Shown here piece by piece: positions 16,142-20,629 of a stretch of 64,000 nucleotides of DNA (position 1 is the first letter of the stretch; the number at the start of each line of letters is the position of its first letter). The notes beneath the pieces were generated by a model. It did no database searches, was not told the origin of the DNA, and saw only the letters and a list, made by a program, of their open reading frames with translations. The position numbers and the translations under genes were made by a program. The DNA comes from Sphingomonas sp. SUN039 (GTDB lineage: Bacteria; Pseudomonadota; Alphaproteobacteria; Sphingomonadales; Sphingomonadaceae), in the NCBI RefSeq assembly GCF_024758725.1, contig NZ_CP096972.1:1594001-1658000 (forward strand), read 5' to 3'.

Positions 16142-17377
16142 TTACTTGACGTAAACCTCGACCCGCCGCGCTTCCGCCGCCGTCACCGTCGCATCGGTCG
16201 CCGCTTCGGGCTTGATGAGTTCGATGGCCGTGTCGGGGATGGTCGCTGCGACCAGCGCCGCCTTCACCGCCTCCGCCCGCTTTTTCGACAGCGCCGCATT
16301 TACTGCCGCATTGCCGGTCGGATCGTTGTAGCCCGACACGCCGAGCGAACTGCCCGCATGGCCGTCGAGATAGGCTTTCACCTTCGCGGCCTCGGCCGCG
16401 AATTCGGGCGCGACATCGGCCTTTCCGGTCGCGAAATACACCTTCACGACGGGCTTTTCGTCGCGCACTTCGGCGACGATCCCGGCACCTTCCGGCACCG
16501 CTGCTTCGACCACCGGTGCCGCGACAGGTGCCGTCTCGGGCGCTGCCGTGGCAACGGCAGCGGGCTTGTGCATGAACAACAGCCAGAGCAGCGCGAGTGC
16601 AAGCAGCCCAAGCGCCAGCCACATGAACATGCGGATTTCCTTGCCGCCGCCACCGTCGCTGAACAGGCTCAGCCTGCGCCCGAGCGGACTCGAATCGCCT
16701 TTCCAGTTCCCGATTGCAGAGGCCGCAACGCCTGCAGCGGCGGCGCCTGCGGCAGTTGCTGCGACGGCGGAGTTTGCGACCGGCGCGGCAGGCTTGGCGG
16801 CGACAACCGGGGCTGCCGCAGCAACGACCGGCGCGGCGGCAAGTGCGGCGAGCGGGGCAGCTGCCTTAGGCGCGGCCGTTTTCGCTGCTGCCTTGGGCGC
16901 GGTGGCCTTGGGCGCTGCTGCCTTTGTAGCCGCTGCCTTGGCGGTAGCAGCCTTCGGCTTGGGCGTTTTGGCCGCAGCCGCTGCGACACCCGCTGCCGCC
17001 GCCAGTCCGGCAGCCGCCGCCACCGGCGCGGCCTTCGCCGCCGTCGCCTTGGCTGCTTTCACGAACAGGCCGTGCATCCCGAACTTGTCCGAGAGCAGGT
17101 AATAGACGGTCACGCGGTTCTTGGTACGGTCGGCCTTCATCCGCTCGCCGACCTCGGCAATCGCGGCATCGAGCACCGCATCGCTATCGGTCAGCCCGCA
17201 TTTCTTCTTGAGGAAGTTGTTGCGGACGCGCGCGAGTTCGACAGGGTCGCTGAACGCCACCAGCGATGAATCGACCTTTTGCAGGGCGATCCCGCAATAG
17301 CGCACGATCCCCGCGATCACGCCGTCATCGGCGTCCGGCGCATATTTCTTGACGTCGCTTGCCCAGTCCTTGGCCAT
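16142..17377 (-). CDS. DUF2853 - Ala/Pro/Lys linker - membrane helix - OmpA-domain fusion protein
   Basis: 411 residues in four parts. Residues 1-~105 are a DUF2853 domain (MAKDWASDVKKYAPDADDG, KCGLTDSDAVLDAAI, VTVYYLLSDKFG). Residues ~110-215 are a low-complexity A/K/P linker of KAA and KPA units. One membrane helix (MFMWLALGLLALALLWLLF) lies near 250-270. A C-terminal OmpA/MotB-type domain follows from ~300, with YFATGKADVAPEF and GYNDPTGN...LSKKRAEAVKAAL providing the Asp and Arg that bind diaminopimelate. The topology suggests a cytoplasmic DUF2853 domain tethered through the membrane to peptidoglycan. It is convergent with the HExxH gene. Function unknown. Confidence 0.8.
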   Translation of the reverse strand: MAKDWASDVKKYAPDADDGVIAGIVRYCGIALQKVDSSLVAFSDPVELARVRNNFLKKKCGLTDSDAVLDAAIAEVGERMKADRTKNRVTVYYLLSDKFGMHGLFVKAAKATAAKAAPVAAAAGLAAAAGVAAAAAKTPKPKAATAKAAATKAAAPKATAPKAAAKTAAPKAAAPLAALAAAPVVAAAAPVVAAKPAAPVANSAVAATAAGAAAAGVAASAIGNWKGDSSPLGRRLSLFSDGGGGKEIRMFMWLALGLLALALLWLLFMHKPAAVATAAPETAPVAAPVVEAAVPEGAGIVAEVRDEKPVVKVYFATGKADVAPEFAAEAAKVKAYLDGHAGSSLGVSGYNDPTGNAAVNAALSKKRAEAVKAALVAATIPDTAIELIKPEAATDATVTAAEARRVEVYVK

Positions 17378-17551
17378 ATCTTCCTCCCCGTCGCCCGCCG
17401 CGTCGCGGCGCAGTCCGACACATTGCTAGCGTATCGATTGCAAAAGGTAAGCCGGAATCATTTCGGGCGTGAATTGCAAACAATGGTGGCACCGTGCGGT
17501 GGCTGGACGCCAGTGCAACGGGCGCTATCGTTGCGGCGAAGGAGTATCGCC

Positions 17552-18004
17552 TTGGACCAGCCGCTTGACACGTTCCGTTCCTCGACCTGGGGCTGGCTGC
17601 GCGGGACGCTCGCGGGCTGGGCAACGCTGGCGCTGTGCCTCGTCGGGATCGGACTGGTCATCGTCCTGATCAAATGGATCGAAAATCTGGCAACGACCTA
17701 CGAGATTTCCGAAGACCGGCTGATCCTCCGCAAGGGCATTTTCGTCAAAAGCATCGACGAGGTCGAACTATACCGGGTGAAGGACGTGCGGCTGGATTTC
17801 ACCCTCATCAACCAATGGGCGAACATCGGCACGATCACGATATCATCGAGCGATGAAACCACCCGCGACGCGCCACTGGTCATCCGCGATGTCGACAATG
17901 CGAACACGCGGCGCGAGAAATTGCGGCGGCTGGTCGAAGCTGCGCGGGTGAAGCGACGGGTGCGTGAACTGGATGTCGGGGGCGAGGGGTTTAGCGAAAA
18001 ATAA
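17552..18004 (+). CDS. PH-domain (DUF304/YdbT-like) membrane protein
   Basis: About 150 residues from TTG at 17552, chosen because GAAGGAG lies 8-9 bases upstream; the open frame continues further 5' without a better start. One hydrophobic segment (LAGWATLALCLVGIGLVIVLI) is followed by the bacterial PH-like motif: YEISEDRLILRKGIFVKSIDEVELYRVKDV, then a NIGTITISSSD strand and a basic C-terminal helix. Bacterial PH domains of this type are membrane-bound and of unclear ligand. It is divergent from the DUF2853-OmpA gene. The stop is followed immediately by the AT-rich island. Confidence 0.75.
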   Translation: MDQPLDTFRSSTWGWLRGTLAGWATLALCLVGIGLVIVLIKWIENLATTYEISEDRLILRKGIFVKSIDEVELYRVKDVRLDFTLINQWANIGTITISSSDETTRDAPLVIRDVDNANTRREKLRRLVEAARVKRRVRELDVGGEGFSEK

Positions 18005-18046
18005 CGAACAAGAGTTCCAGCAATCTCGAAATTTATTGACCAAAAG

Positions 18047-18778
18047 TTATTCGAGAGCAGATACATTTTTTATGCCGCCCCATTCACCTAAATCAATTCT
18101 AATCGGGACGCTCATATCAGTAACTGGGATTCGCTTCATATTTCCAAAAATAAATGACTCATTGCCTTTTATATAAATTATGTAAGCATTGTTTATATTG
18201 TATGCATCCAATCCAGTAGATACCGAAAAATGAAATTGATTGGTATTTGTCCAAACTATTTTTTCAATATTCACATATGAAAAAGGTTGATGAAAATCGA
18301 TTTTCGTTTTCATATTTGGAACTATTCCAAGCACAATAATTTCTTTTGAGCTAGCAAGCGCAATTTTTTTTCCATCGGGAGAAACAGAGTAAATCGATGG
18401 TGCAAATTGTCGAGCTTCAAATAAGGTTTCTTTGGCGTTTTGAACCTTATAGATTCCTTGTTGTCGAAAAAATCCACCATCCCGCCAGTCGAGCTTAGGT
18501 TCTGGTTCGATGGTAGCGACTGAAAACGATAGCTTACCAGAACCGGGTTCGACCGGATCACAATCTACCGACAAAGGTAGAGCTAAACATATAAGTGTGT
18601 CTTTCAAATCTCTACCGGTGGTCGATCTTAGAAACACGTCGGTAACAGCAAACGCAATAGGTACTAAAATCCATAGAATTTTTCCAAGCGGCGTCTTTCC
18701 CAACCAACCCACGCAAACGAACAAGACAGCTAACGCCGCTCCGATGACCAAAATACTATCAACTAAGAGACTTGTCAC
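18047..18778 (-). CDS. AT-rich orphan membrane protein
   Basis: 243 residues from GTG at 18776-18778. Two N-terminal membrane helices (ILVIGAALAVLFVCVGWLG and ILWILVPIAFAVTDVFL) are followed by a ~180-residue soluble part containing YSVSPDGKKIALASSKEIIVL, a beta-propeller-like (WD40/TolB) blade pattern, then a second blade-like stretch. Base composition is far lower in GC than all neighbours, and codon use is AT-rich (many AAT, AAA, ATT). That suggests recent acquisition from a low-GC donor. A run of ten G (on the coding strand) lies 3 bases before the start codon, in the Shine-Dalgarno position. It is downstream of grpE. No family recognised. Confidence 0.7.
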   Translation of the reverse strand: MTSLLVDSILVIGAALAVLFVCVGWLGKTPLGKILWILVPIAFAVTDVFLRSTTGRDLKDTLICLALPLSVDCDPVEPGSGKLSFSVATIEPEPKLDWRDGGFFRQQGIYKVQNAKETLFEARQFAPSIYSVSPDGKKIALASSKEIIVLGIVPNMKTKIDFHQPFSYVNIEKIVWTNTNQFHFSVSTGLDAYNINNAYIIYIKGNESFIFGNMKRIPVTDMSVPIRIDLGEWGGIKNVSALE

Positions 18779-18781
18779 TTA

Positions 18782-18791
18782 CCCCCCCCCC
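18782..18791. repeat. homopolymer tract C10/G10 next to a start codon
   Basis: Ten consecutive C on the plus strand (G10 on the coding strand) between grpE and the AT-rich orphan, ending 3 bases before its GTG. Mononucleotide G tracts of this length are slippage-prone and can vary expression of the gene behind them. Confidence 0.8.
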
Positions 18792-18823
18792 GGGCGACCC
18801 TAATCTCAAGAAACGTCCTACAA

Positions 18824-19378
18824 TTAAGTGGTCTTTGCAACCCCGACCATCGCCGCACGCAGCAACCGGTCGCGGATCATATAGCCTGCCTGCATCTCTT
18901 GCACGATCGTGCCGGGCTCCGCATCGCTCGGCAGTTCGATCATCGCTTGGTGCTTGTTCGGGTCGAGCTTCTCCCCGACCGACAAAATCCGCGTGATGCC
19001 GTTGCGCTCGAACACCTTGTCGAGTTCGCGCCCGGTTGCTTCGAGGCCCACGACCAGCCCCTTGAACTTGTCGTCGTCGCGCAATTCCTGCGGAATAGCA
19101 TCCAGCGCGCGCGACAGGTTGTCGGCGACCGACAGCACGTCACGCGCGAAATTCGTGGCCGCATAGGCGCGGGCGTCCTGCGCGTCCTTTTCCATGCGGC
19201 GGCGGACGTTCTGCGTCTCGGCCTGTGCGTAGAGCACGGCCTGCTTGGTCTCGGCCAGTTCGGCCTCGAGCGCGGCGTACTGCGCCTCCGGATTGGGTTC
19301 CGACGGCGCGCCCTCGGCAACCATTTCGTCTTCGGCTGCTAAATCCTGTGCCGCGTCGTTTTCGTTCATCTGGGTCAT
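18824..19378 (-). CDS. grpE: nucleotide exchange factor GrpE
   Basis: 184 residues from ATG at 19376-19378. The acidic N-terminal tail and long coiled coil (ALEAELAETKQAVLYAQAETQNVRRRMEKDAQDARAY) match GrpE. The C-terminal beta domain carries GVEKLDPNKHQAM-type residues (here VGEKLDPNKHQAMIELPSDAEPGTIVQEMQAGYMIRDRLLRAA). It accelerates ADP release from DnaK. The start overlaps the hrcA stop by 4 bp (ATGA), so the two are coupled. An upstream TTG three codons earlier was rejected because the ATG fits the overlap. Confidence 0.95.
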   Translation of the reverse strand: MTQMNENDAAQDLAAEDEMVAEGAPSEPNPEAQYAALEAELAETKQAVLYAQAETQNVRRRMEKDAQDARAYAATNFARDVLSVADNLSRALDAIPQELRDDDKFKGLVVGLEATGRELDKVFERNGITRILSVGEKLDPNKHQAMIELPSDAEPGTIVQEMQAGYMIRDRLLRAAMVGVAKTT

Positions 19379-20421
19379 TCTCGCCAAAGTCTCTGTGATA
19401 GGGTTTGTGCCGTGAAATCCACCATCGGGACGACACGGGCGTAATTCAAGCGGGTCGGGCCGATCACGCCGACAACGCCGACGACGCGGCCATCGCGCCC
19501 GTGATAGGGGGCCGCTATCACCGACGAGCCCGACAGCGCAAACAGCTTGTTCTCCGCGCCGATAAACACTTTGGCGGCGGAAGCGTTGCTGGCCGAGCCG
19601 AGCAACGACGCAATCGCTTCCTTGCCCTCGATCTCGTCGAGCAACTGCCGGACGCGGTCGAGGTCGGCCATCGCAGTGTCGTCGATCAGGTTCGCGGCCC
19701 CGCGCACGATCAGCACTGGCCGCGCTGCGCCATCCTGCGACCAGATTGCCAGCCCGCGTTCGATCAGTTCGCGCGATGCACTGTCGAGCGCCGCTTTCTC
19801 ATGGCGCAACTCGCCCGCGATCCGCGCCTGCGCTTCGACGAGTGTCAGCCCCGCGAGCCGCGCCGACATATAGTTGCACGCCTCGGTCAGGGCATCCGCG
19901 CTCAGGCCGTCGGGCAGCGCAATGACGCGGTTCTCGACCGAGCCGTCGTCGCCGACCAGCACCGCCAGCGCCTGCCCCGGCGACAGCGGCACGAACGCGA
20001 ACTGGCGCACGCGCACCTCGCGGGTCGGCACCAGCACCAGACCCGCGCAAGCCGACAGGCCCGACAGCGCCGCCGTCGCCGCCGCCAGCGCCTCCTCGAC
20101 CGGACCCGCCGTAGCCAACCGCCCCTCGATGACCGCACGTTCCTCGACCGTCGGTTCGGCGGCCTGCATCATGCCGTCGACGAACAGCCGCAGCCCGGTC
20201 TGCGTCGGCATACGCCCAGCCGAGGTATGCGGATGGTCGAGCAGCCCCGCTTCCTCCAGATCCTGCATGACATTGCGAATCGAGGCGGGCGACAGGTTGA
20301 GCCCCGACAGCTTCGAGATCGTCCGCGACCCGACCGGCGCGCCCGAATCGAGATATTGTTCGACGACAACGCGAAACACGTCGCGCGCGCGGGTCGTCAG
20401 TTCCTGAACGGGGGCGGACAT
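19375..20421 (-). CDS. hrcA: heat-inducible transcription repressor HrcA
   Basis: 348 residues from MSAPVQELTTRARDVF. The N-terminal winged helix (ISKLSGLNLSPASIRNVMQDLEEAGLL, then HPHTSAGRMPTQTGLRLFVDGMM) is diagnostic. The central and C-terminal GAF-like domain (SGSSVIAAPYHGRDGRVVGVVGVIGPTRLNYARVVPMVDFTA) follows. HrcA normally represses groESL through CIRCE sites; none was seen in this window, so its targets should lie elsewhere. Gene order 62-residue gene - hrcA - grpE is on the minus strand, divergent from rph, the usual alphaproteobacterial arrangement. Confidence 0.95.
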   Translation of the reverse strand: MSAPVQELTTRARDVFRVVVEQYLDSGAPVGSRTISKLSGLNLSPASIRNVMQDLEEAGLLDHPHTSAGRMPTQTGLRLFVDGMMQAAEPTVEERAVIEGRLATAGPVEEALAAATAALSGLSACAGLVLVPTREVRVRQFAFVPLSPGQALAVLVGDDGSVENRVIALPDGLSADALTEACNYMSARLAGLTLVEAQARIAGELRHEKAALDSASRELIERGLAIWSQDGAARPVLIVRGAANLIDDTAMADLDRVRQLLDEIEGKEAIASLLGSASNASAAKVFIGAENKLFALSGSSVIAAPYHGRDGRVVGVVGVIGPTRLNYARVVPMVDFTAQTLSQRLWRE

Positions 20422-20440
20422 CGCCGCGCTATATGGGGCG

Positions 20441-20629
20441 CTATCGCCGCCGTGCAAAGATCAGGCAGCCGACGCCGACGGTCGCGAGCAGGACGCCCCA
20501 CATCGCCCAGATGCGCTGGTCGAGCATGAAGCTCGACTGCGGCCACATGACGAGGCCGGTCCCCTGCCCGATCCAGAGCAGGCCCATCAGCACCGCGAGT
20601 ACTCCGACGATGTTCAGCACAATCTTCAT
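20441..20629 (-). CDS. small two-helix membrane protein
   Basis: 62 residues with two hydrophobic segments ([20 protein letters not shown] and [20 protein letters not shown]) separated by a short polar loop with QSSFMLDQR, and an RRR C-terminal end. It is likely a small inner-membrane protein. It lies 19 bp upstream of hrcA on the same strand, so it probably heads the hrcA-grpE transcription unit; heat-shock coregulation is possible. No known domain. Confidence 0.7.

Follow-up and report, generated by a model that had tools for sequence, protein, structure and literature searches.

A G10 tract as the proposed Shine-Dalgarno element of an orphan gene behind grpE in Sphingomonas sp. SUN039

The stretch of DNA analysed here (hereafter the window) comprises 64,000 nucleotides of the Sphingomonas sp. 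SUN039 chromosome contig, and all positions are those of the window unless stated otherwise. The analysis is centred on the interval between grpE and dnaK (17378-18823) and its grpE side, where the following features are located.

17553 to 18004, forward strand: bPH_2-domain gene, convergent to the orphan gene (Pfam bPH_2, 3e-14)
18047 to 18778, reverse strand: orphan open reading frame (ORF) of 243 amino acids with a GTG start, two N-terminal hydrophobic helices (sequence and structure model) and a third-position GC content (GC3) of 0.32
18779 to 18781, reverse strand: TAA, a fixed 3-nt spacer and in-frame stop immediately 5' of the start (sequence)
18782 to 18791, reverse strand: G10 tract, the proposed Shine-Dalgarno (SD) element (sequence and pairing model)
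18824 to 19387, reverse strand: grpE (Pfam GrpE, 1e-46)
19375 to 20457, reverse strand: gene upstream of grpE and overlapping it, taken here to be hrcA from the general order of these genes; this order is conserved in relatives

The orphan gene follows grpE on the same strand at a distance of 45 nt. The convergent bPH_2 gene, which appears to start with TTG at 17553 judging from its AAGGAG SD, occupies the same spot in several genera by synteny. In the relatives the grpE-dnaK interval is short or holds other genes, its contents ranging from little beyond an ORF of 65-66 amino acids to an OmpA-like gene, a small lipoprotein-like ORF or a hydrophobic ORF of 111 amino acids; in one relative it carries a flippase-like ORF and further ORFs which, read by their sequences, look like sugar-polymer genes. 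The interval is a gene-turnover spot in the family, with contents dependent on the species. Since these contents are varied in the relatives and the orphan has no homologue (see below), the orphan is probably a recent arrival at this spot behind grpE. A search for insertion-boundary repeats returned just one 11-nt pair (18003 and 18716), of a size expected by chance.

The orphan ORF, with 243 codons, exceeds the longest ORF (219 codons) found among 2000 simulations with matching dinucleotide composition and is therefore considered real; a genuine coding sequence thus follows the tract. The GC contents of its three codon positions are 0.47, 0.38 and 0.32, as against third-position values of 0.77-0.85 in the neighbouring genes, and the GC content drops to about 0.30 in its 3' half. 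No homologue was detected in a sample of the genus, in 299 genomes of the family and 398 of the order, in a scan of GTDB contigs, or among viral contigs, plasmids, phages and the PDB, and searches against Pfam, NCBIfam, PHROGs and PADLOC yielded nothing usable, leaving the orphan without an above-threshold protein family. Weak matches in three genomes (G100, G045 and G209) were not convincing as a related gene.

Hydrophobic stretches were observed at about residues 2-25 and 30-54 of the orphan protein, and a single-sequence structure model (mean pLDDT 40.7) is semi-confident only at the N-terminal helices, being too poor for a fold judgement or a fold search. N-terminal membrane helices are plausible on this basis. 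The first-pass annotation had additionally proposed a propeller-like exterior domain, for which no adequate support was obtained: the propeller-related Pfam matches lie below the cut-off (RMC1_N, residues 130-195, 19.7 bits against a cut-off of 27.3), neither profiles nor fold reveal the several blades of a beta-propeller or WD40 protein, and a sequence search of the PDB gave no match. The 243 residues, less the anchor, would also leave room for few blades.

On the coding strand, the order at the start of the gene is GTCGCCC-G10-TAA-GTG-ACA-AGT, the G10 corresponding to a C10 at 18782-18791 on the forward strand, with the TAA at 18781-18779 and the GTG start at 18778-18776. The arrangement reported by the first-pass annotation, G10-TAA-GTG across 18776-18791, is thus exact. 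All other G or C runs in the window are of 7 or fewer, and the C10 is the sole longer run; a dinucleotide chain predicts 0.13 runs of at least 10 per window on both strands, and 0.0008 C runs of at least 10 in the AT-rich stretch itself. A pattern search of the 3.53-Mb genome identified 17 places with G8 or more (eleven G8, three G9, two G10 and one G13/14), three of which are of G10 or more; most of the G8 tracts sit within long ORFs.

The capacity of the tract to serve as an SD was examined with an ungapped pairing model with a spacing penalty, applied to tracts from G3 to G14 ahead of the fixed TAA-GTG. The 16S rRNA model (RF00177) had no match in the genome copy searched, which is rated 100% complete but presumably lacks its rRNA, and the anti-SD was therefore assumed to be CCUCC. 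The modelled energy at a suitable distance from the start (gap 5 nt) is -8.7 kcal/mol and is constant from G9 to G14, decreasing in strength for shorter tracts to -8.2 (G8), -7.7 (G7), -6.1 (G6), -2.9 (G5) and -1.3 kcal/mol (G4). In the same window, the SD of the OmpA-like gene reaches -9.1 and that of dnaJ -5.7 kcal/mol, those of grpE and dnaK being very weak. These values come from a simple energy model, in which co-transcriptional folding, G-quadruplexes and standby sites play no part. The predicted folding of the leader is not out of the ordinary (z 0.58) and shifts by about 1 kcal/mol over G8-G14. By this model the tract would act as a strong SD, and it is very probably the Shine-Dalgarno of the gene. 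Five to eight Gs would be engaged by the 16S tail, GGGGG opposite CCUCC and more Gs through G-U pairs to the following U residues.

Support for this assignment was sought outside the locus. The second G10 of the genome (genome positions 1220863-1220872, or 1220398-1220872 together with the ORF that it precedes) lies downstream of an enoyl-CoA hydratase and has the order G10-CGG-ATG, exactly 3 nt before the start of a hydrophobic ORF of 153 amino acids. A homologue of this ORF was found in only one other genome (G177, 63%) among 398 family genomes, where it is preceded by an ordinary GGAG SD and no tract. Long G tracts were then considered across the family, using tracts fetched from a pattern listing over 200 family genomes and selected for a nearby RTG. 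A tract was scored as gene-like when an ATG or GTG lay 3-10 nt after it and opened an ORF of at least 100 amino acids, the frame being open for no more than 40 codons upstream. This was the case for 17 of 45 G10+ tracts as against 7.8% of random positions, which are mostly coding (p 2e-8), and for none of 14 C tracts. The gene-like fraction rises with the length of the G run, from 9% for G3, 12% for G4, 22% for G5 and 18% for G6 to about 38-39% for G10+, while it remains at or below 10% for C runs. When the ORF test is left off, 55 of the 200 family genomes contain G10-N3-8-RTG and 45 contain the reversed control (a hand count from the table), so the effect of G tracts is modest. The enrichment at gene starts could also arise from a purging of long tracts out of coding sequence, although the strand bias argues against that alone. 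Pfam domains above the cut-off were present in 9 of the 16 post-tract ORFs scanned, and the genes include a ChlI-type Mg-chelatase (domain from residue 21), two MFS transporters, an ion channel, a serine hydrolase, a transglutaminase-like protein and a glyoxalase. The genes after G10+ tracts are not mainly surface traits or antigens. The geometry of the second G10 and the enrichment in the family lend independent support to long G tracts as SDs, and the tract under study is very probably a real, mildly unusual all-G SD. The ribosome-binding position assigned to it by the first-pass annotation is borne out by the real 243-codon ORF and by the family-wide enrichment of G tracts before gene starts.

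Taken together, the G10 tract is likely to be the SD of a laterally acquired orphan gene for a membrane protein, one that entered behind grpE and probably shares the hrcA-grpE transcript. Neither a terminator-like site between grpE and the orphan nor a promoter for the orphan around the tract was recognised, and the window contains no CIRCE heat-shock operator; the grpE transcript would probably be the source of the orphan mRNA. A promoter role of the tract was considered and rejected, the sole promoter-like match near the start being inside the gene and such matches occurring at about chance level.

An alternative, which appears unlikely, takes the same arrangement as a neutral accident: the tract would be a remnant left where the insertion meets grpE, the gene would be hardly expressed or would start at another place, and the resemblance to an SD position would be without function. 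This alternative agrees with the low GC3 of the orphan ORF at a gene-turnover spot, with the want of a recognisable promoter of its own and with the location of the tract on the side of the insert that faces grpE, the point at which alignment to the relatives stops. However, no other in-frame start was noticed that has an SD of similar quality, the second G10 of the genome shares the 3-nt geometry, and gene starts throughout the family show an excess of G tracts on the sense strand.

The first-pass annotation had taken the site for a contingency locus subject to phase variation: by slipping, the G tract would alter the strength or the spacing of the SD and so switch or tune the translation of a surface protein. 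This reading finds encouragement in a long G homopolymer (about 7 or more units, here G10) in the leader, 3 nt from the start and in the SD position, where expression could be affected; in the tuning of uspA1, tlpB, espR and tprL by leader poly-G (PMC7302503, PMC8295292, PMC11898584, PMC7864442); in a one-G difference in the only long G tract seen twice in the assembly; and in the nature of the gene, an orphan of low GC3 with N-terminal helices. The proposed mechanism does not hold in the pairing model, however, where the SD strength is the same for every length from G9 to G14 and the spacer does not vary. Additional Gs would lengthen the tract at its 5' end, the TAA spacer to the GTG remaining constant. 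Since positions -4 to -13 are all G and the TAA spacer is fixed, a tract with one or two Gs more or fewer is predicted to provide an SD of the same quality, still suitably spaced. Slippage of the tract may well occur, its effect near G10 being predicted as close to neutral, and output would fall, in a graded manner, only below about G7, that is, upon contraction to about G6 or less. A length change of one or two Gs is nearly without predicted effect, and the tract is therefore not a convincing on/off switch; for a change of one unit in particular, the modelled SD energy is flat and the frame is unaffected, so that no altered expression is expected. Switching of the frame through the tract was rejected as well, since the TAA after the tract, in the frame of the GTG, blocks a frame fusion, and more stops lie upstream. 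Moreover, leader folding changes little, the surface location of the protein is unsupported, and with only three G10+ tracts in the genome and most G8 tracts inside long ORFs there is no set of such loci. A gapped pattern search of GTDB contigs returned no variant tract length in another strain. Phase variation at the tract is unproven and, as modelled, mechanistically weak, and the contingency reading is accordingly held to be decidedly unlikely.

A broader proposal, for which we see but a slim chance, is that all-G SDs of at least ten form a recurrent class in the family, which would slip often, be buffered near ten and lose output after several losses, thereby providing a slow, reversible and graded tuning of, for example, newly acquired genes.

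That the length of the tract, or the tract itself, is an artefact of sequencing or assembly is very unlikely, though the lengths of such tracts call for caution. The first 109 and the last 110 bases of the chromosome contig are the same sequence, an untrimmed terminal overlap, and their sole difference is one G in a poly-G written as G13 in the first copy and as G14 in the last; the lengths given for long G tracts in this assembly may therefore be off by one or more. The mismatch may reflect slippage in culture or a read error, and sequencing noise fits as well as biology. An acyl-CoA-dehydrogenase-like gene is found immediately upstream of this G13/14 tract, and the tract is followed by a short ORF, the stop codon of which overlaps the next start. 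In the family's draft genomes, several poly-G tracts of 10-26 are found near the ends of contigs, which suggests sequencing difficulty or assembly breaks. One family genome (G054) has a run of 66 Gs (about 1447-1512 of the fetched region) inside a long contig, 3 nt before an ATG-containing stretch, which is probably an assembly artefact. The tract under study, however, is internal to a 3.5-Mb contig with intact flanking genes, and an error of 1-2 bases would still leave G8-G12 at the same place. Control of translation by a small RNA that binds the tract through a C/U-rich loop, in the manner of RepG on tlpB, is extremely improbable: accessible leader G-repeats are all possible targets of such RNAs (PMC8295292), but none is known here, and Rfam gave no match across 17300-20600, the region to which that search applies.

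If the preferred reading is correct and the tract is only an all-G SD, a poly-G beside a start is by itself no evidence for phase variation. Where the repeat constitutes the SD and is followed by a fixed spacer, a change of its length is predicted to be nearly silent, and this near-silence provides a simple filter for genome scans. Should tuning prove true instead, it would represent a translational contingency mechanism acting through the length of the SD and not through the reading frame or the spacing of a promoter.

Phase variation by poly-G tracts was not found for this lineage in the titles and abstract openings covered by a literature search. GnT mutational hotspots have been measured for G3-G5 only, with 5' C and 3' A flanks as the least mutagenic (PMC12344412); with the T that follows it, the present G10 formally qualifies as such a GnT site, but it has the 5' C and 3' A flanks and is beyond the measured lengths. 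Leader G tracts with regulatory effects are known from other bacteria. In Moraxella catarrhalis, a leader G(n) of about 6-12, located 29 bp upstream of uspA1, alters the mRNA level (PMC7302503); the present tract likewise lies in the leader of a gene for a putative membrane protein, outside the coding sequence, but 3 nt from the start, as the SD itself. The leader G-repeat of tlpB in Helicobacter pylori varies in length and permits post-transcriptional tuning via a C/U-rich small RNA, RepG (PMC8295292); the present tract is likewise a leader G-repeat, but no such RNA is known here. In Mycobacterium tuberculosis, one G added to a leader G7 144 bp upstream of espR raises translation via leader folding (PMC11898584); both cases involve a leader G homopolymer in a GC-rich genome, whereas the predicted leader folding here changes little with tract length. 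The variable G7-G11 upstream of tprL, a putative outer-membrane protein gene of Treponema pallidum, has a promoter effect (PMC7864442), unlike the present tract, around which no promoter was recognised. The tracts of uspA1, tlpB, espR and tprL are all situated away from the SD, whereas the tract behind grpE very probably constitutes the SD.
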